From Methylobacterium sp. FF17 (GTDB lineage: Bacteria > Pseudomonadota > Alphaproteobacteria > Rhizobiales > Beijerinckiaceae): a stretch of 64,000 nucleotides of DNA. Shown here piece by piece: positions 4,911-47,895 of this stretch (within the stretch, counting starts at the first letter, position 1; each line of letters begins with the position of its first letter). Both the position numbers and the translations under genes were made by a program. The notes beneath the pieces are model-generated. The model saw only the letters and a program-made list of their open reading frames with translations. It made no database searches and was not told the DNA's origin. Location: the NCBI RefSeq assembly GCF_025813715.1, contig NZ_CP107532.1, forward strand, positions 1,364,001-1,428,000, read 5' to 3'.

Positions 4911-5831
4911 TCACGTCAGCAGATAGCGCTGCGGCTCCAGCGGCGGCGGCGCTGTCTCGCCCAGCGCGTCGAGCACGATCCCGTCGATGGTGTGCAGGAG
5001 GGCGTCGAGCGGCAGGTCGTTCGGCGCGAGGCCGAACGGCTCCTCCAGTTCGTCACCGAGCGCATCGAGACCGAAGAAGGTGTAGGCGACGAGCGCCGTG
5101 GCCACCGGTGTCGCCCAGCCGAGAGAGGCGGCGAGACCGAAGGGCAGGAGCAGGCAGTAGACCCAGGCCGTGCGGTAGAGGAGCAGGGTGTAGGCGAAGG
5201 GCAGCGGGGTGTTCTGGATGCGCTCGCACACGACCTGGACCTGGGCCAGCGCCGCGATCCGGTGCTCCAGGGTTGCGAACAGCACGTCGGTGAGGGCGCC
5301 CCGGCGATACGCCTCGGCGAGGTCGGCGGTCAGCCGGGCCAGGATCGCGTCCGCCGCGCTCGGATGCCCGGCGAGCGCCCCGGCCTCGTCCGCCGGGAGC
5401 CAGGGCCCGGCCGCGACGGCGGGCTCGCCCCCGCGCAGTTGGGCGTGCAGGGCATGCGCGAAGGCCGAGAGGCGCCGCAGCGCGCGGCCGCGCCGGGAGG
5501 CCTCGGCCTCATCCGGCAGCAGGGCGTTGAGCAGCCGGGCGAGCCCCCGCGCCTCGACGACGAGGCTGCCCCAGGCCCGGCGCCCTTCCCACCAGCGGTC
5601 GTAGCAGGCGCTGTTACGAAAGCTCAGGAAGATCGACAGCGCGATTCCGATCAGGGTGAAGGGCCCGACCCCGGCGGTGATCGGGAACGCCTCCGGCCAG
5701 CGCCGCTCCACCGCCACCACCACGACCGCGATCCCGGTGATCCCCAGGACCTTGAGGGCCACCTGCGGCAGGATCGAGCCGCGCAGGGTGAACAGGATGT
5801 CGAACAGGCTCGGGCGCGAACGGACGATCAT
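4911..5831 (-). CDS. Bestrophin-like (UPF0187/YneE) membrane channel protein
   Basis: The product has 306 residues. The start MIVRSRPSLFDILFTLRGSI, the following pair of transmembrane helices, SFRNSACYDRWWEGRRAWG, and the late helices with GLDALGDELEEPFG are diagnostic of the bacterial bestrophin family. Members form pentameric ion channels in the inner membrane; bacterial ones conduct cations or anions depending on pore residues, so ion choice is not assigned here. The length is normal. It stands alone between gene remnants and the SDR gene. Confidence 0.85.
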   Translation of the reverse strand: MIVRSRPSLFDILFTLRGSILPQVALKVLGITGIAVVVVAVERRWPEAFPITAGVGPFTLIGIALSIFLSFRNSACYDRWWEGRRAWGSLVVEARGLARLLNALLPDEAEASRRGRALRRLSAFAHALHAQLRGGEPAVAAGPWLPADEAGALAGHPSAADAILARLTADLAEAYRRGALTDVLFATLEHRIAALAQVQVVCERIQNTPLPFAYTLLLYRTAWVYCLLLPFGLAASLGWATPVATALVAYTFFGLDALGDELEEPFGLAPNDLPLDALLHTIDGIVLDALGETAPPPLEPQRYLLT

Positions 5832-5914
5832 CGCACCGTCTTCTCAGGCCACGGCTTGTCCCGCAACCGCGCCACGTCGTCCGCGCGCCCCTCTCGCGTT
5901 CACGGATCCGGCGC

Positions 5915-6670
5915 TCAGAGCGACCAGCCCCCGTCGACCGAGATCGAGGCGCCGGTCACGAACGCCCCGAGATCGGAGCACATCCACAGGACCGCCTCCG
6001 CGATTTCCTCTGGCCGGCCCAAACGCCCGACCGGCTCCAGCGCGATCGCCTTCCGGATGTCGCCGCCGGTGAAGCGGTCCATCATCGGCGTCTCGATGTT
6101 GCCGGGCAGGACGGCATTCACCCGGATGTTCGAGGTGGCGTAGTCGAGGGCGGCGGACTTGGTCAGGCCGATGATCGCATGCTTGGACGCGGCGTAGCTC
6201 GCGCCGCCCGCCACGCCCCGGATGCCTGCCCCCGACGCGGTGTTGACCACCACACCGCCACCCTGGCGCAGCATCTGTGCGATCTCGTGCTTCATGCACA
6301 CGAAGGTGCCGCGCAGGTTGATATCGAGGATCCGGTCCCACGCCTCCAGCGCGATCTCCGCGACCGGTGCGGCCTCGTTCTCAACCCCGGCATTGTTGAA
6401 GGCGATGTCGAGGCGGCCGAACACCGCGACGGTCCGCGCGACCGCCGCCTCGACCTGCTCCGGAACCGCGACGTCGCAGGCGATGGCCAGCACCGCGCCG
6501 CCGGTCGCCCGGATCGCATCCGCCACCGGCTGCAGCGCATCCTCCGCCCGGTCGATCAGGGCGACACGCGCCCCTTCCTGAGCGAAGGCGATGGCGGTGG
6601 CACGCCCGATGCCGCTGGCGGCTCCGGTGATGAAGGCGACCTTGTCGGTGAAGCGGTCGGGGCGGGACAT
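5915..6670 (-). CDS. Short-chain dehydrogenase/reductase (SDR)
   Basis: The product has 251 residues and is a classical SDR. The Rossmann cofactor motif TGAASGIG is near residue 15, followed by NNAG, a catalytic Ser in NTASGAG, YAASK with the catalytic Tyr and Lys, and a PGNIETPM loop. An acidic residue after beta-2 (ALIDR) favours NAD(H). A GAGGAG ribosome site precedes the ATG. The substrate cannot be read from sequence; the nearest families are glucose-1-dehydrogenase- and cyclopentanol-dehydrogenase-like. A perfect palindrome at 6821-6839 upstream and the neighbouring lysR gene suggest it is a regulated target. Confidence 0.88.
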   Translation of the reverse strand: MSRPDRFTDKVAFITGAASGIGRATAIAFAQEGARVALIDRAEDALQPVADAIRATGGAVLAIACDVAVPEQVEAAVARTVAVFGRLDIAFNNAGVENEAAPVAEIALEAWDRILDINLRGTFVCMKHEIAQMLRQGGGVVVNTASGAGIRGVAGGASYAASKHAIIGLTKSAALDYATSNIRVNAVLPGNIETPMMDRFTGGDIRKAIALEPVGRLGRPEEIAEAVLWMCSDLGAFVTGASISVDGGWSL

Positions 6671-21046: not shown

Positions 21047-21805
21047 TCACCCCGCCGGAGACGCCTCTTTTCCTGCCGGAGACGTCTCTTTTCCCGGCGG
21101 AGGCGTCTCTTTTCCTGCCGGAGGGGTCTCTTGCAAGGCGGCGAGGTAGGCCTTGAGGAGGGCGACCCGCTTCGGCCGGAAGCTCGGGCCTCCGCCCTCG
21201 GCGGCGACGATCCGGTCCGCGCGGAACATGCGATGCGCCGCGCGCAGGCAGCACCAGGCGAGGATCACGAGCTTGCGGTCGAGATAGACGATCGCGAGGG
21301 GCCAGATCGCCCGATCCGTGACCCGGTCCTCCCCGTCACGGTAGCGGATCGTCACCGCCTCCTCACGCCAGCACCCTTCGCGGATCGTGGCGAGGCTGGT
21401 CGCGGGCGCGAAGCGTTCCTCCGACCGGCGCACCCGCGAGACCGCGTGAAGGAGGTGCTGCTGGCCCGCATCCGGCAGTGTCGCGGCAACCTTGGCGAGC
21501 ACCGCGCCTGCGGCCCGGGCCAGGGCCGGATCCCCCATGTGGCGCACCTCGGACAGGCCGAGGACCAGGGCCTCGATCTCGATCCGGTCGAAGACCTGCG
21601 GCGGCAGGGCGCCGTCCTCGATCAGGCGATAGCCGTAGCCGCGCTCACCGGCGATCTGGGCGCCGGCCGCGCGCAGGCTGTCGATGTCGCGGTAGACCGA
21701 GCGGAGGGAGACGCCCGTCTCCTCCGCCAGCCGCGCCGCCGTCACGGGCGCGGGAAGCACGCGCAGGGTCTGGAGCAGGCGAAACAGGCGATCGGTGCGG
21801 GCCAT
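21047..21805 (-). CDS. HTH/WYL-domain transcriptional regulator with a repeat-expanded tail
   Basis: The product has 252 residues. An N-terminal HTH_11 domain (RLFRLLQTLRVLPAPVTAAR, SLRSVYRDIDSLRAAGAQI) is followed by a WYL domain (AVTIRYRDGEDRVTDRAIWP, LAIVYLDRKLVILAWC), family YafY/PafBC-type, where the WYL part binds a ligand. The last 27 residues are a heptapeptide repeat, ETPPAGK-ETPPPGK-ETSPAGK-EASPAG, matching a 21-bp DNA repeat. It is divergent from the GST gene, a plausible target. Confidence 0.82.
   Translation of the reverse strand: MARTDRLFRLLQTLRVLPAPVTAARLAEETGVSLRSVYRDIDSLRAAGAQIAGERGYGYRLIEDGALPPQVFDRIEIEALVLGLSEVRHMGDPALARAAGAVLAKVAATLPDAGQQHLLHAVSRVRRSEERFAPATSLATIREGCWREEAVTIRYRDGEDRVTDRAIWPLAIVYLDRKLVILAWCCLRAAHRMFRADRIVAAEGGGPSFRPKRVALLKAYLAALQETPPAGKETPPPGKETSPAGKEASPAG
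21053..21136. repeat. 21-bp in-frame tandem repeat, about four copies
   Basis: The unit GCCGGAGACGCCTCTTTTCC recurs at 21-bp spacing with few changes, ending in a shortened copy. It codes on the minus strand for the heptapeptide repeat at the WYL-regulator C-terminus. A multiple of three keeps the frame if copies are gained or lost. Confidence 0.8.
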
Positions 21806-37641: not shown

Positions 37642-40407
37642 TCAGCCCTGCGCGATCATTTCGCGGATGCGCACACCCAGCGTCTCCACCACGAAGGGCT
37701 TGGTCAGCACCGCCATGCCGGGTTCGAGGTGGCCGTTGCCGACGACGGCGTTCTCGGCGTAGCCCGTGATGAAGAGCACCTTGAGGTCGGGCCGGTTCAC
37801 GCGGGCGGCGTCCGCCATCTGGCGACCGTTCATCCCGCCCGGCAGCCCGACATCCGTGACGAGCAGGTCGATCCGGACGTCCGATTGCAGCACCTTGAGC
37901 CCCGAGGCGCTGTCGGCGGCCTCGATGGCGGTATAGCCGAGATCCTCCAGCACCTCGGTCACCAGCATCCGCACGGTGGGCTCGTCGTCGACGACGAGGA
38001 CCGTCTCGCCCTGCTCGGCGCGCGGCGCTTCCGTCAGACCGCCCAGCGGGTCGTCCTCGGTCACCAGGCCGTGATGGCGCGGCAGGTAGATGCAGGCGGT
38101 CGTGCCCTCGCCCACCTCCGAGTACAACCGCACCTGCCCCCCCGACTGCTTGGCGAAGCCGTAGATCATGGACAGGCCGAGCCCGGTCCCCTGGCCGATG
38201 GGCTTGGTGGTGAAGAACGGGTCGAACACCTTGGCGAGCACGTCGGGGCCCATACCGGTGCCGGTATCGGTGACACAGAGCGAGAGGTACTGCCCCTCGG
38301 GCACGTCGTGCTTGCGCGCCGCCCAACGGTCGAGCCAGGCGTTCGCGGTCTCGATCGTGATGCGGCCCCCATCCGGCATGGCGTCGCGCGCGTTGATGCA
38401 GAGATTCAGCAGCGCGTTCTCGAGCTGCGGCGGGTCGACCAGGGCCGCCCACAGCCCGGCGGCCCCGACCACCTCGACCGTGACGGCGGGGCCGACCGTG
38501 CGCCGGATCAGCTCTTCCATGCCGCGCACGAGCGTGTTCACGTCGGTGGGCTTCGGGTCGAGCGTCTGGCGGCGCGAGAACGCCAGCAGGCGATGGGTCA
38601 GCGCGGCAGCGCGCTTCGCTGCCCCCTGGGCGGCCGACATGTAGCGATCGATGTCCTTGAGCCGCCCCTGACCGATACGGGTCTGCATCAGCTCCAGCGA
38701 ACCGGAGATGCCCGCGAGCAGGTTGTTGAAGTCGTGCGCGAGCCCGCCCGTGAGCTGGCCCACAGCCTCCATCTTCTGGGACTGGCGCAATTGCGCTTCG
38801 AGGCGTTCCCTCTGCTCGGCGGCATCCTTGTCCGCGGTGATGTCGCGGCCGGTCCCCGTCAGGCGCCTGCCACCGGGCTCGGGCGCCAGCTTCCACGCGA
38901 CCCAGCGCCAGGTCCCGTCGGCGGCCCTGAGCCGGTCCTCGAAGCGGACCGGCTTGTCGCTGGCCCGCATCGCGAGCAAGGCTTCCATGACGACCGGGAA
39001 ATCGTCCGGATGGACGAGTTCGGCATACGGCCGGGCGAGCAGGGTCTCCTCGGTATGGCCCAGCAGCGTCGTCCACGACGGACTGACCCGGAGCAGGCGG
39101 CCCTCGTAATCGGCCTGAACGAGCAGGTCCTCGCTGAGCTCCCACAGGCGGTCCCGTTCGGCCGCCAACCCGGCCTCGGCGTCCCGCTGGCCGGTCACAT
39201 CCTGGACGAAGACGTAGAAGCCGTCGACCGCGCCCCGGGAATCCCGGCGCGGTTCGTAGCGGATGTCGGCGATGCGTCGGCGCCCGTCCGGCCAGGGCCA
39301 CAGCAGATCCGTGCGAACCGCCGTTCCGGCGAGCGCCCGCTCCATGTTCGGCCGCCGCGCCCGGAACCCGGCCTCGCCGACGATGTCGGGAACCCGCCGG
39401 CCGGCCACCTCCTCCGGCGTGCGTCCGAACCAGACGCGGGCGGCATGGTTCACGAAGCGGTAGGTCAGGCTCCGGTCGACGAAGCCGACGAGCAGCGGGA
39501 GCGCATCGGCCACGAGGCGCAGGTCGGCCTCGCTCTCGCGTAGGCTCGCCTCGGCGAGCTTGCGGTCGTGCACGTCCTCGACGACGCCGTACCAGCGGAT
39601 GATCGCGCCGGCTTCATCCCGGCGCGGGTAGGCGCGGGCCCGCTGCCAGCGGTACTCGCCCGTGGCGGCGATGCGGATGCGGTAATCCACGTCCACCGGC
39701 CCGCCCGAGGACAACGCGGCCGAGAAGGCCGCCCCCGTCGGCGCTAGGTCGTCGGGATGCAGCGCCTTGGTCCAGCCGGTGCCGTCCGGCTCCCCGGGCG
39801 CCTGCCCCGTGAGTTCGAGCCAGCGGTGCGAGTAGGAGGTGATGTTGCCGTGCGGATCGCAGGTCCAGGGCACCTGCGGGTTGAGCTCCACCGTCTGCCG
39901 GAAGTGCTCCTCGCTTTCGCGCAGCGCCTTGTCGCCCAGCACCCGCGCGGTGGTCTCGTTGGTGAAGACGAACAGCCCGGCCACGCCCCCCGCGCCGTCG
40001 AGCACCCGCGAATACGAGAAGGTGAACCAGGTGTCGGCGCCGCCCCGGTCGGTGGCGAGCTTCCACGGCAGGTCGTCGAAGCGCCGGCTGCGCCCCGCGA
40101 ACGCATCGTCGATGATGGGCCTCGCCTGGTCCCAGGCATCGGCCCAGACCACGTCGAAGCGCTCGCCCATGGCCCAGGGCAGGCGAGGTCCGAGCAGCGG
40201 GACGTAGGCGTCGTTGAAGAAGAACGTGAGGTCCGGCCCCCAGGCGAGGATCATCGATTCCGGCGAGTTCAGCACCAGGCTGAGGGCGACGCGCAAGCCT
40301 TCGGGCCAGGTCTCGGGAGCCCCGAGGGGATGACCCGACCAGTCGCACGTGCGGATCATGCGGGCGGCCTCGCCGCCGCCGGCGAGGAAGGCCAGGGACT
40401 CGCTCAT
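37642..40407 (-). CDS. Soluble multi-PAS hybrid histidine kinase
   Basis: The product has 921 residues with no membrane helix. About four PAS domains occupy residues 15-530. A HisKA domain with the acceptor His in GGLAHDFNNLLAGI is followed by an HATPase domain (NARDAMPDGG, DTGTGM, GTGLGLSM) and a C-terminal receiver with acceptor Asp in LLVTDVGLPGG. The ATG at 40407 follows CGAGG. This class senses light, redox or small molecules through PAS; no cofactor residue is recognisable. No separate response regulator lies beside it. Confidence 0.88.
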   Translation of the reverse strand: MSESLAFLAGGGEAARMIRTCDWSGHPLGAPETWPEGLRVALSLVLNSPESMILAWGPDLTFFFNDAYVPLLGPRLPWAMGERFDVVWADAWDQARPIIDDAFAGRSRRFDDLPWKLATDRGGADTWFTFSYSRVLDGAGGVAGLFVFTNETTARVLGDKALRESEEHFRQTVELNPQVPWTCDPHGNITSYSHRWLELTGQAPGEPDGTGWTKALHPDDLAPTGAAFSAALSSGGPVDVDYRIRIAATGEYRWQRARAYPRRDEAGAIIRWYGVVEDVHDRKLAEASLRESEADLRLVADALPLLVGFVDRSLTYRFVNHAARVWFGRTPEEVAGRRVPDIVGEAGFRARRPNMERALAGTAVRTDLLWPWPDGRRRIADIRYEPRRDSRGAVDGFYVFVQDVTGQRDAEAGLAAERDRLWELSEDLLVQADYEGRLLRVSPSWTTLLGHTEETLLARPYAELVHPDDFPVVMEALLAMRASDKPVRFEDRLRAADGTWRWVAWKLAPEPGGRRLTGTGRDITADKDAAEQRERLEAQLRQSQKMEAVGQLTGGLAHDFNNLLAGISGSLELMQTRIGQGRLKDIDRYMSAAQGAAKRAAALTHRLLAFSRRQTLDPKPTDVNTLVRGMEELIRRTVGPAVTVEVVGAAGLWAALVDPPQLENALLNLCINARDAMPDGGRITIETANAWLDRWAARKHDVPEGQYLSLCVTDTGTGMGPDVLAKVFDPFFTTKPIGQGTGLGLSMIYGFAKQSGGQVRLYSEVGEGTTACIYLPRHHGLVTEDDPLGGLTEAPRAEQGETVLVVDDEPTVRMLVTEVLEDLGYTAIEAADSASGLKVLQSDVRIDLLVTDVGLPGGMNGRQMADAARVNRPDLKVLFITGYAENAVVGNGHLEPGMAVLTKPFVVETLGVRIREMIAQG

Positions 40408-41163
40408 GCGATCAAGCCTCGGCCGCCGAGGACGGCACGTCGCGGTGGCTCTCGAAGGCGTGCACGCGAGCGTCGAGCGGGCGCGGCGCCGGGCGCACGA
40501 CCGCGCTCCTGTCGCCGTCGCGCCCCGGGGTGAGCGCCCGCCCGGTGGCGGCTGGACGCCCGGGACTGAGCGAAAGGGTGACGGGCTTGCGGCAAGGCAT
40601 GCGGACGTTTGGCCTGTCGAATTTGCTCCGACAACGCGTCGACCTGCCGCAAGGCTGCATCGTCGGGCCGAGGCGCGCAGGTCCGGACCGCCGAAGGCGC
40701 GGACGCCGACGCGCACAGGAGTCGTCGTCCCGGAGGGCACCGGCAGCCGCCGGACATCCGGTGCGGGAAAAGGCTGCCCGGGCTCATGCCCGCACCGTGT
40801 CCGCCCCGATCTGCGGTGCGGCCCAGGGGCAGCATCGATCCACCGGGAGCCGGCGAAGCGCGCCTGCCTCGGTCACACCGACATCCGTGCATCCCTGTAG
40901 TCGATGCTTCGCGCCTCGAAATACCAGACGGCAACGATCGAGCAAATTGCCAAGCTGTTGGTCAGTTTTCTGACGAACGCGCATCGAAAAAACGCAGAAC
41001 GATGCCGTCAGAGATCATGCCAGGAATTCTCTGTTGCGTTCGATGACGATTTATTAAGGATAGAATCACTGTCGGTTTTCCAACATCATCTGCCGTAGCG
41101 CATTCTTAATTCTTGGGGCACCAAGGACCAAGGAGACACCACGAAGGCAGGAAGCGCTCGCCC
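40408..41163. other. Long gene-poor region upstream of the diguanylate cyclase
   Basis: I see no credible gene. Open frames here are GC-rich, lack ribosome sites and match nothing known. Composition becomes AT-richer from 40950 to 41110. A purine-rich AAGGAGA (41130-41136) and CAGGAAG (41148-41154) precede the 14-bp repeat array. Confidence 0.4.
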
Positions 41164-41209
41164 ATGATCCTTCCAACATGATCCTTCCGACATGATCCTG
41201 CCGACATGA
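41164..41209 (+). CDS. Three overlapping five-codon mini-ORFs (leader relay)
   Basis: Each 14-bp repeat unit starts with ATG and reads MILPT-stop: ATG 41164 to TGA 41181, ATG 41178 to TGA 41195, ATG 41192 to TGA 41209. Every stop overlaps the next start as ATGA, and the last TGA overlaps the ATG (41206) of the diguanylate cyclase. CAGGAAG 9 nt before the first ATG is a plausible ribosome site; none occurs inside the array. CTTCC in three of the four units could pair with GGAAG of that site. The function as a translational relay is inferred. Confidence 0.5.
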
Positions 41210-41219
41210 TCCTTCCGGA
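41164..41219 (+). repeat. 14-bp tandem repeat, four copies, across the cyclase start
   Basis: The units ATGATCCTTCCAAC, ATGATCCTTCCGAC, ATGATCCTGCCGAC and ATGATCCTTCCGGA follow without gaps. The fourth carries the start codon of the diguanylate cyclase. Since 14 is not a multiple of three, each ATG is in a different frame from the previous one. Confidence 0.9.
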
Positions 41220-42738
41220 CCGCTTCGCGCGCCGGCTCCGCTCCGCCCGGACATGGATCGTCCTCGGCGTGCTGGCGCCCCTCGGGATGCTCGCCGTCTC
41301 CGGCCTGATGCTGCTCGACCTGAGGCAGGATGCCTGGGACAAGGCCGGGCAGACCTCGAAGAACCTGCTACAGGTCATCGAGCGCGACATCGCCCGCAAC
41401 GTCGAGATCGTCGACCTCTCGCTCCGGGCCGTCCAGGACAATCTCCGCGCCCCGGGCCTCGCGCAGCTCGAGCCGGAGATGCGCCAGCTCGTTCTGTTCG
41501 ACCGCGCGGCGTCCGCGCGCGACCTCGGCGTCATGTTCGTCCTCGACGAGAACGGCGACGTGATCATCGACGCCGCGGCCTTCCCGCCGCGCAAGGGCAA
41601 CTACGTCGACCGCGACTACTTCCAGGCCCACAAGGCCAACCGGCATCTCGGCCTGCATGTGGGACGGCCGATCGTCTCACGCCTCACGGGCGAGCGCATG
41701 CTGACCTTCACCCGGCGGATCGACAAGCCCGACGGCTCCTTCGGCGGGCTGGTGCTCGGGAGCCTGAAGCTGACCTTCTTCAGCCGCCTCTTCGACCAGA
41801 TCGGCCTCGGCAACGAGGGCGCGATCAACCTCTATCTGCGCGACGGCACCCGCATCACGCGCCACCCTTACCTGGAAGCCGATATCGGCGTGAACATCGC
41901 CGGCTCTCGAACCTTCGACCGTTTCGCACGCGAAGGCAGCGGCAGCTTCGTCGAGACCTCCGTCCGCGACGGCATCAGGCGGCTCTACACCTTCGCACGC
42001 GTCGGCGACCTTCCGCTGATCCTGAACGTGGCGCTCGCCGTCGACGCGATCGAGAGCGGATGGCGTGCAAAGGCGCTCGTCATCGGCGTCGTCGTGCTGG
42101 TCCTGTGTGGGCTCACCGCCGCCCTGTCGCTGCTGTTCGGGCGCGAGCTCCGCCGCCGCGCCGCCATGCAAGCCGAACTCGCCCAGCTGTCGCTCACGGA
42201 TGCCTTGACGGGGCTGCCGAACCGGCGCCGGTTCGACGAGGTGTTCGAACGAGCCCGGAAGGGCGCGCGGCGGACGGACAGACCGCTGTCCCTGCTCGTC
42301 GTCGATGCCGATCACTTCAAGCGCTACAACGATCGGTACGGTCACTCGGTCGGGGACGAGGTGCTCCGCTGCCTGGCGCGCTGCCTGTCGGCCAGCGTGC
42401 ACCGGCCGGACGACCTCGTCGCCCGCGTCGGCGGCGAGGAGTTCGTGATCCTGCTGCCCGACACCGACCTCGACGGAGCCCACCGCATCGCCAGGAAGGT
42501 GCACGCGGTCGTGGCGACGCTGGCGGTGCCGACGGCCGGCATCGGCGCGGGTGCTGTCACGGTGAGCATCGGACTGGCTGTCGAGGACGGCGTGGGAGGC
42601 ACCGCCGGGGGAGAACTCTACGAACGCGCCGACGCGGCCCTCTACGAGGCCAAGGCGGGCGGACGCAACCAGACGCGGTCCGCGACGGCCACGAAACCGC
42701 GCGGGGCCGGACCGCCCATGCGTCTCGTGGCGTCCTAG
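41206..42738 (+). CDS. Membrane-bound diguanylate cyclase with dCache sensor
   Basis: The product has 510 residues. A transmembrane helix (about 17-37) and a periplasmic dCache/PAS-like sensor (about 45-285, with NYVDRDYFQAHKANRHLGLH and GRPIVSRLTGERMLTFTRRI) are followed by a second helix (about 288-310) and a GGDEF domain. The active site is VGGEEFVILLPD, a functional GGEEF form, so the protein should make c-di-GMP from GTP. No clear inhibitory RxxD is present just upstream of the site. The start lies in a 14-bp repeat and overlaps a mini-ORF stop, so translation depends on that leader. Confidence 0.9.
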   Translation: MILPDRFARRLRSARTWIVLGVLAPLGMLAVSGLMLLDLRQDAWDKAGQTSKNLLQVIERDIARNVEIVDLSLRAVQDNLRAPGLAQLEPEMRQLVLFDRAASARDLGVMFVLDENGDVIIDAAAFPPRKGNYVDRDYFQAHKANRHLGLHVGRPIVSRLTGERMLTFTRRIDKPDGSFGGLVLGSLKLTFFSRLFDQIGLGNEGAINLYLRDGTRITRHPYLEADIGVNIAGSRTFDRFAREGSGSFVETSVRDGIRRLYTFARVGDLPLILNVALAVDAIESGWRAKALVIGVVVLVLCGLTAALSLLFGRELRRRAAMQAELAQLSLTDALTGLPNRRRFDEVFERARKGARRTDRPLSLLVVDADHFKRYNDRYGHSVGDEVLRCLARCLSASVHRPDDLVARVGGEEFVILLPDTDLDGAHRIARKVHAVVATLAVPTAGIGAGAVTVSIGLAVEDGVGGTAGGELYERADAALYEAKAGGRNQTRSATATKPRGAGPPMRLVAS

Positions 42739-47573: not shown

Positions 47574-47895
47574 GGGATGACCTCGACGGATCTGAAGGGA
47601 ATGCCAGGGTAAGAACCGCCCCGGTGCGGAGTTCCGGCACGCGGCGGCGCGCCGCAAGGGCAGCGCACCGCTCCGGGTGGCGAAGCGACATCGCGTCGGC
47701 TTGCCGGCTCCAGAGGCGGCACCATCTCGGGAAGCGGCATGTCGCGGGACGGCATGGCTCCTCCCCCGCCCGAGTTCTTCCCCGCTCCAGTCCTTCCCCG
47801 CTCCAGTCCTTCCCTGCTCCAATCCTTCCCTGCTCCAATCCTTCCCCGCTCCAATCCTTCCCCGCTCCTTGGCGAGCGCATCCCATCCGGGACGC
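47574..47895. other. Intergenic region holding a 16-bp repeat array
   Basis: No gene is supported. The main feature is the tandem repeat at 47778-47868; the rest holds the promoters of the cupredoxin and phosphoesterase genes. Confidence 0.5.
47778..47868 (+). repeat. 16-bp tandem repeat, five copies plus a partial
   Basis: TTCCCCGCTCCAGTCC occurs twice, then three copies with AATCC endings (two with a C-to-T change), then a partial copy. The last unit ends 28 nt before the phosphoesterase start. The run is pyrimidine-rich on the plus strand. Confidence 0.9.

Follow-up and report, generated by a model that had tools for sequence, protein, structure and literature searches.

Tandem 14-bp Arrays at Start Codons Form Chains of Overlapping Mini-ORFs Upstream of Unrelated Genes in Methylobacterium

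Introduction

What becomes of the translation of a gene when the segment carrying its start codon is duplicated in tandem? The question is raised by a locus in Methylobacterium sp. FF17 at which four copies of a 14-bp unit, each with its own ATG, stand at the beginning of a gene for a diguanylate cyclase; the consequences of a start-codon duplication for the reading frame are readable at once. The locus lies within a stretch of 64,000 nucleotides, referred to here as the window (C1:1364001-1428000 of the 6.0-Mb genome, designated G000), and window positions are counted from its first nucleotide. A first-pass annotation had proposed that ribosomes reach the cyclase gene by termination and reinitiation along a chain of mini-ORFs, and that the number of copies tunes the amount of c-di-GMP. 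Here we describe the array, its relationship to cyclase homologues, and arrays of the same design at other genes of the genus and of its class.

Genes that overlap by 4 nt are translationally coupled and the last 15 nt of the upstream gene are enough for this, according to excerpts from PMC10666635, in which a gap of +14 nt is also reported to cost 40-80% in E. coli gene pairs. The same excerpts describe as disputed whether post-termination ribosomes reinitiate solely at overlapping stop-start codons or scan tens of nucleotides. Reinitiation often requires help from a Shine-Dalgarno (SD) sequence, and in the sections available to us of PMC6728339 loss of the SD near the junction abolished reinitiation in one E. 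coli gene pair and reduced it by 60-90% in three others.

Results

Anatomy of the array

Read directly from the sequence, the array consists of a 14-bp tandem unit present four times at 41164-41219 and containing three five-codon ORFs, each encoding MILPT followed by a stop (Table 1); the first-pass description of this structure, with ATGA junctions leading into the GGDEF gene, was confirmed by the sequence and by TRF. The unit begins ATGATCCT, three copies each read ATG-ATC-CTN-CCN-ACA-TGA, and the fourth copy (ATGATCCTTCCGGA) differs from the unit at its final two bases. At all three junctions the stop overlaps the following start by the 4 nt (-4) typical of termination-reinitiation coupling at ATGA overlaps. 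Any unit that starts with ATGA and has a length of 3n+2 produces this overlap automatically, and the coincidence that needs explanation is therefore the length class. Three units amount to 42 nt, which puts ATG1 in the frame of the cyclase gene, although the TGA of mini-ORF 1 shuts that frame at 41179. The array is not of the phase-variable kind in which copy number switches a gene on and off by frame, since the last ATG and the ORF behind it stay the same whatever the number of 14-bp units. Two other tandem arrays are present in the window, one at 47759-47868 (16 bp x6.9, TCCTTCCCCGCTCCAA) and one at 21054-21132 (21 bp x3.8).

Table 1. Coordinates of the tandem array, its mini-ORFs and the adjoining gene in the window.
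Feature	Position	Strand	Sequence	Basis and remarks
Shine-Dalgarno-like stretch before ATG1	41144-41154	+	AAGGCAGGAAG	Duplex scan; contains CAGGAAG; aligns with homologue leaders
Tandem array	41164-41219	+		TRF: period 14, 3.9 copies, 92% matches, score 96
Unit 1	41164-41177	+	ATGATCCTTCCAAC	Sequence
Unit 2	41178-41191	+	ATGATCCTTCCGAC	Sequence
Unit 3	41192-41205	+	ATGATCCTGCCGAC	Sequence
Unit 4	41206-41219	+	ATGATCCTTCCGGA	Sequence; start of GGDEF ORF 41206-42738
Mini-ORF 1, MILPT-stop	41164-41181	+		Sequence; TGA 41179-41181 overlaps ATG2
Mini-ORF 2, MILPT-stop	41178-41195	+		Sequence; overlaps ATG3
Mini-ORF 3, MILPT-stop	41192-41209	+		Sequence; TGA 41207-41209 overlaps GGDEF-gene ATG
Sensor diguanylate cyclase, 510 aa, dCache + GGDEF	41206-42738	+		Pfam GGDEF 6.1e-46, dCache_1_like 1.6e-13

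Ribosome sites and leader

A duplex scan against the anti-SD sequence found SD-like pairing of -6.9 kcal/mol before ATG1, by AAGGCAGG at 41144-41151, whereas no such pairing precedes ATG2, ATG3 or ATG4, in agreement with the earlier suggestion that the sole good ribosome site precedes the first mini-ORF. The AAGGAG at 41130-41135 is a better SD match, yet it ends 28 nt upstream of ATG1. The stretch AAGGCAGGAAG aligns with leaders of the GGGAG or GCGAAAGG type in 22 homologues. Pairing of this site with the CTTCC of the units had also been suggested, but the leader fold is unremarkable (z = -0.5) and the predicted partner of GGCAGGA is the TCCTGCC of unit 3. Neither a sigma-70-like promoter nor a terminator was found in 40400-41300.

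Origin of the array at the cyclase gene

Four close paralogues of the cyclase (66-80%) are encoded in the window's own genome, and many homologues occur across the 111 genomes of the genus. These proteins typically start MxLPxRLARRLRSARTWI, to which the cyclase N-terminus, MILPDRFARRLRSARTWI, is similar, and their genes have a single ATG and a leader of the type ACCAAGCAACGA...GGGAG. The first-pass annotation had recommended aligning related loci for copy-number variation and conservation of the ATGA junctions; each of the 22 homologues aligned has a lone ATG preceded by a related leader, and none has an array. The leader and start of the cyclase gene align with them once three units are removed, ATG1 then falling at the homologues' start-codon position, and 42 nt have therefore been added at the cyclase gene. 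This alignment drew on 23 loci at which the match begins at residue 1, and 22 remained after L018 was dropped (the gene at L014 contains a stop); later-starting matches (e.g. L029, L031, L032, L035-L039), as well as L012 and L013, whose leaders are identical to that of L011, were viewed and left out. No array was present at any cyclase homologue viewed or aligned. We conclude that the initiation region of the cyclase gene has expanded into an array which, so far as could be seen, only this genome has.

Among the 120 proteins listed, only the window's own exceeds 84% identity, and there is thus no close strain for comparison. Among named organisms, the nearest protein matches come from Methylobacterium and Methylorubrum. 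In the five genomes from which the top matches to the neighbouring kinase were taken, cyclase DNA was found nearby only in G097 (L152, about 5583-6225); it is decayed, truncated at both ends and without an array, and lies ~5 kb from the matching histidine kinase. An exact two-unit search of genome contigs gave no match. When up to 3 mismatches were allowed, a three-unit array like that of the window was found in the 111 genomes only in the window itself and once, between genes, in G098, and two-unit arrays again in these two alone. The intergenic G098 array (L061, 1496-1542) has 14-bp units (CCGACATGAGCCTG x3.4) that are nearly the window's, and its last ATG leads into a short frame. We considered the idea of a repeat family or binding site and dropped it, the units of other arrays being unrelated, though G098 has this look-alike.

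Arrays of the same design in the genus

The 111 genomes were searched for ATGA-N10 three times followed by ATG, which gave 72 matches in 35 genomes, corresponding to 43 distinct arrays, all of them fetched; a backward control pattern matched in 3 of the 111 genomes. Orthologous arrays among these are not independent events. In 33 of the 43 arrays a frame of 150 or more codons follows from the last ATG, as compared with 20% of 369 ATGA sites at the same loci, and a downstream ORF supported by Pfam (family above cut-off) is present in 30, the array at the cyclase gene and L287 included. The remaining 13 are made up of six that open fewer than 60 codons and seven others without an assigned family. 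Nearly all of the mini-ORFs (152 of 157) have exactly five codons.

The genes downstream of the arrays have no function in common. Their families are MFS, glutaminase, GT61, CobQ-type, ABC-2, HolB-type (3 genomes), EamA, AroE, KdpE-type (3), AEC-type, YcjX, bestrophin (2), MrpD-type (2), TssF, response regulators, SpoIIE, GT2, amidase, RND, NMT1 and ATP-grasp, where KdpE, HolB, MrpD and similar names are our reading of Pfam hits. Units of different arrays likewise share little beyond ATGA and the spacing. The 5' halves of the units are more similar to the gene's own first codons (0.55 identity, versus 0.42 for 3' halves) and the 3' halves to the sequence preceding the first ATG (0.58, versus 0.49 for 5' halves), a modest sign that hints at duplications straddling the start codon. 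Across 37 arrays compared by duplex scan, the SD was stronger at the first ATG in 24 and at the last in 10, with 3 ties, which is a modest difference; in some arrays an SD-like stretch is present in every unit.

We note that the window's own genome contains a second 14-bp ATGA chain (L276, G000:C1:1587272-1587316), with diverged units, situated between an upstream frame of more than 500 codons and a family-2 glycosyltransferase ORF. At L162 and L166 the arrays contain TCATGA, and start-stop chains are consequently found on both strands of the same DNA.

Upstream frames and copy number

Eight of the 43 genus arrays stand between two long frames: the first TGA closes an upstream frame of at least 300 codons, and the array is followed by an ORF of more than 230 codons, the baseline for such upstream frames being 7% of 369 ATGA sites at the same loci; L157 (10 codons after the array) and L179 (first copy ATGC, not ATGA) were left out of the eight. 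The clearest example is the KdpD-KdpE-type junction of three species: the kinase frame finishes with D-(I/L)-A-A-TGA, its stop being that of the first ATGA, and the regulator begins at the last ATG, with 5, 7 and 3 units between them. Copy numbers in other orthologous sets are 4, 4 and 3 (HolB-type), 4 and 3 (bestrophin), and 3 and 6 (MrpD-type), and at ClpS in three genomes of another family (L248, L249 and L251) there are 3, 3 and 3 14-bp units whose interiors differ. The earlier claim that copy number can change without breaking the coupling is thus upheld insofar as orthologous genes of different species, each species represented by one genome, carry different numbers of units; the retention of ATGA and of the 14-bp length within arrays is partly by construction, since the search pattern demanded both, and maintained coupling is a prediction from these junctions.

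Length class of the units

The identical pattern at 13 bp yielded 6 distinct arrays in 5 of the 111 genomes, two of them near-duplicates. Only one of the six has 150 or more open codons from its last ATG (L238, 252), and no Pfam family was found in the five ORFs tested, which come from three of the six arrays. Arrays with no recognised gene downstream number six at 13 bp, about equal to the six short ones (<60 codons) at 14 bp, and the 14-bp excess is therefore at gene starts.

A sample covering all lengths (three CATGA, unit lengths 8-24, in G001-G012 and part of G013, counting arrays with similar units) contained 15 arrays of 3n+2 length (11 bp: 2; 14 bp: 8; 17 bp: 5), 3 of 3n+1 and about 34 of 3n. 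A Pfam-supported ORF is opened by 12 of the 15 at 3n+2 and by none of the 3 at 3n+1; the 3n+1 numbers being small, we take the excess of 3n+2 over 3n+1 as an indication. Among 25 fetched arrays of 3n length, 15 open at least 150 codons, with a Pfam family in 10 of 11 tested, and 7 of the 15 long-opening ones also have more than 200 codons open upstream, so that they lie only putatively at a start. One array, L773, has ten ATGs at 15-bp spacing (the unit reads MTTAP) in one open frame, at a glycosyltransferase ORF.

Raw stretches in virus contigs show no clear length-class preference (10 bp, 101; 11 bp, 119; 13 bp, 40; 14 bp, 92; 16 bp, 68; 17 bp, 35), and virus arrays of similar units that open at least 100 codons number 3, 7, 1, 6, 4 and 4 at these lengths, repeats of one sequence included.

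Arrays elsewhere in the class

Arrays of 14-bp ATGA units occur in 26 of 387 genomes of the class, two of which belong to the genus itself. Outside the genus 36 distinct arrays were listed and 33 examined, G200:C18, G431:C1:998393 and G137:C1:83601 not having been fetched. A Pfam-supported ORF is present at 18 of the 33 (three ClpS, two the same permease), and 12 of the other 15 open fewer than 60 codons. Nine of the 33 have on their upstream side a frame of 300 or more codons that stops at the first TGA, and on their downstream side an ORF of at least 240 codons.

Discussion

The explanation that we favour, and regard as probable though well short of secure, is that duplications across initiation regions survive where termination-reinitiation keeps the gene expressed. 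A segment spanning the cyclase start codon would have been duplicated in tandem. With a unit that opens with ATGA and measures 14 bp (3n+2), each extra copy would add one five-codon mini-ORF whose stop overlaps the next start, every step of the chain staying at -4 nt. Ribosomes would load at the one SD, that of ATG1, and after three rounds of termination and reinitiation would arrive in frame at the ATG of the cyclase gene. Duplications of this kind would have been repeated at unrelated genes, in the genus and elsewhere in its class, with copy number shifting over time and 3n+2 arrays outlasting those of 3n+1, because with a 3n+1 copy ribosomes initiating at the added ATG would enter the gene in the wrong frame. 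Such out-of-frame entry would strike at the first duplication, and would spare 3n+2 and 3n. We infer that ribosomes step along the chain and that the length bias is due to purifying selection. Of the termination-reinitiation relay first proposed for this locus, the chain architecture is real, recurs at unrelated gene starts and is rare at 13 bp; the relay itself is what these features suggest.

The main rival, which we consider possible if distinctly less probable, is that initiation occurs directly at 41206, independently of an SD, and that the upstream copies are harmless bystanders, the debris of duplication. On this explanation arrays of 3n+2 and 3n survive since their upstream ATGs avoid out-of-frame entry, whether or not there is reinitiation; it explains the scarcity of 3n+1 no less well than the relay, and since a gene initiated directly at its last ATG, behind ORFs that do no harm, would show the same length bias, the bias is compatible with reinitiation rather than proof of it. 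The 3n arrays, in which starts or residues are merely added in frame, are also common, as direct initiation would have it, and the relay has against it that the array at the cyclase gene contains no internal SD and that none was found at this gene in any relative. Nevertheless, the only SD in the window array precedes ATG1, more than 50 nt from the cyclase gene, and the eight genus arrays placed exactly between a long upstream frame and a downstream ORF are not what harmless copies would lead one to expect, as a gap of 42-98 nt without a relay would be expected to lose the coupling (from the excerpts of PMC10666635).

It is improbable that copy number is an adaptive rheostat, selected as a slippage-driven tuning dial (for c-di-GMP in the case of the cyclase), as had been proposed for this locus. 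Differences in copy number between species at KdpE-type, HolB-type, bestrophin and MrpD-type genes are of the kind that a rheostat would produce, but arrays precede all kinds of functionally unrelated genes, the cyclase homologues viewed and the G097 remnant are without one, and we find no evidence for copy number as a regulatory dial. Still more doubtful, to the point of being very improbable, is an operator or RNA-protein binding array in which the reading frames are incidental. The unrelated intergenic array of G098, with nearly the same unit, speaks in its favour, but the units of different arrays have little in common apart from ATGA and the spacing, the fold of the leader is nothing out of the ordinary, and binding does not obviously predict that 14 bp should so far exceed 13 bp.

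The closest known kind of element is the MIRU, in which, according to the part of PMC12548453 available to us, a repeat inserted at the start codon of a gene contains an ORF that is coupled to this gene at -4 nt, and probably preserves the gene's expression. The -4 nt overlap of a repeat ORF with the gene start is read directly in the array at the cyclase gene, where the coupling is predicted. MIRUs, however, are one dispersed and apparently mobile family, whereas the units of different arrays here are unrelated, 11-17 bp long, and resemble the start region of their own gene; in 111 genomes the window's unit is arrayed only here and once in G098, and there is no homologous dispersed family. 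The arrays appear to be a variant of what MIRUs do, built locally from each gene's own start.

Every step of the chain has the same junction as ATGA gene pairs that work by termination-reinitiation, although those, in the excerpts of PMC6728339 and PMC10666635, join two genes once, whereas here 2 to 7 mini-ORFs stand in tandem. The TAACTGA heptamers of Beggiatoaceae are likewise short tandem repeats directly upstream of the starts of unrelated genes, with a suggested translational role, but as described in the consulted part of PMC4679880 they are a fixed heptamer with stops in three frames, no start codon and no chain of ORFs. The two-codon minigene of axe-txe resembles the chain in that a mini-ORF raises translation of the next gene in cis, frame and distance being important; it differs, in the excerpt of PMC8708949, in being a single two-codon ORF without a chain, and possibly acts through mRNA stability. 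In full-text searches of an open-access library, subscription journals being outside our scope, we recognised no description of tandem start-stop chains.

Gene starts beside such chains are easily misplaced in annotation. Chains at many unrelated gene starts would test repeated stopping and restarting of the ribosome in nature, and the 2 to 7 chained overlaps, with one length class favoured, are natural alleles for the efficiency of each step and its limits. We suggest, tentatively, and as less likely to hold than the relay on which it builds, that start-codon minisatellites of 3n+2 length are recurrent, copy-number-variable cis-elements of this class, imposing up to seven consecutive stop-restart steps, probable housekeeping genes (AroE-, HolB- and ClpS-type) included. 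Genomes would thereby record which junctions reinitiate efficiently enough to persist, and expression may be quietly set by copy number.
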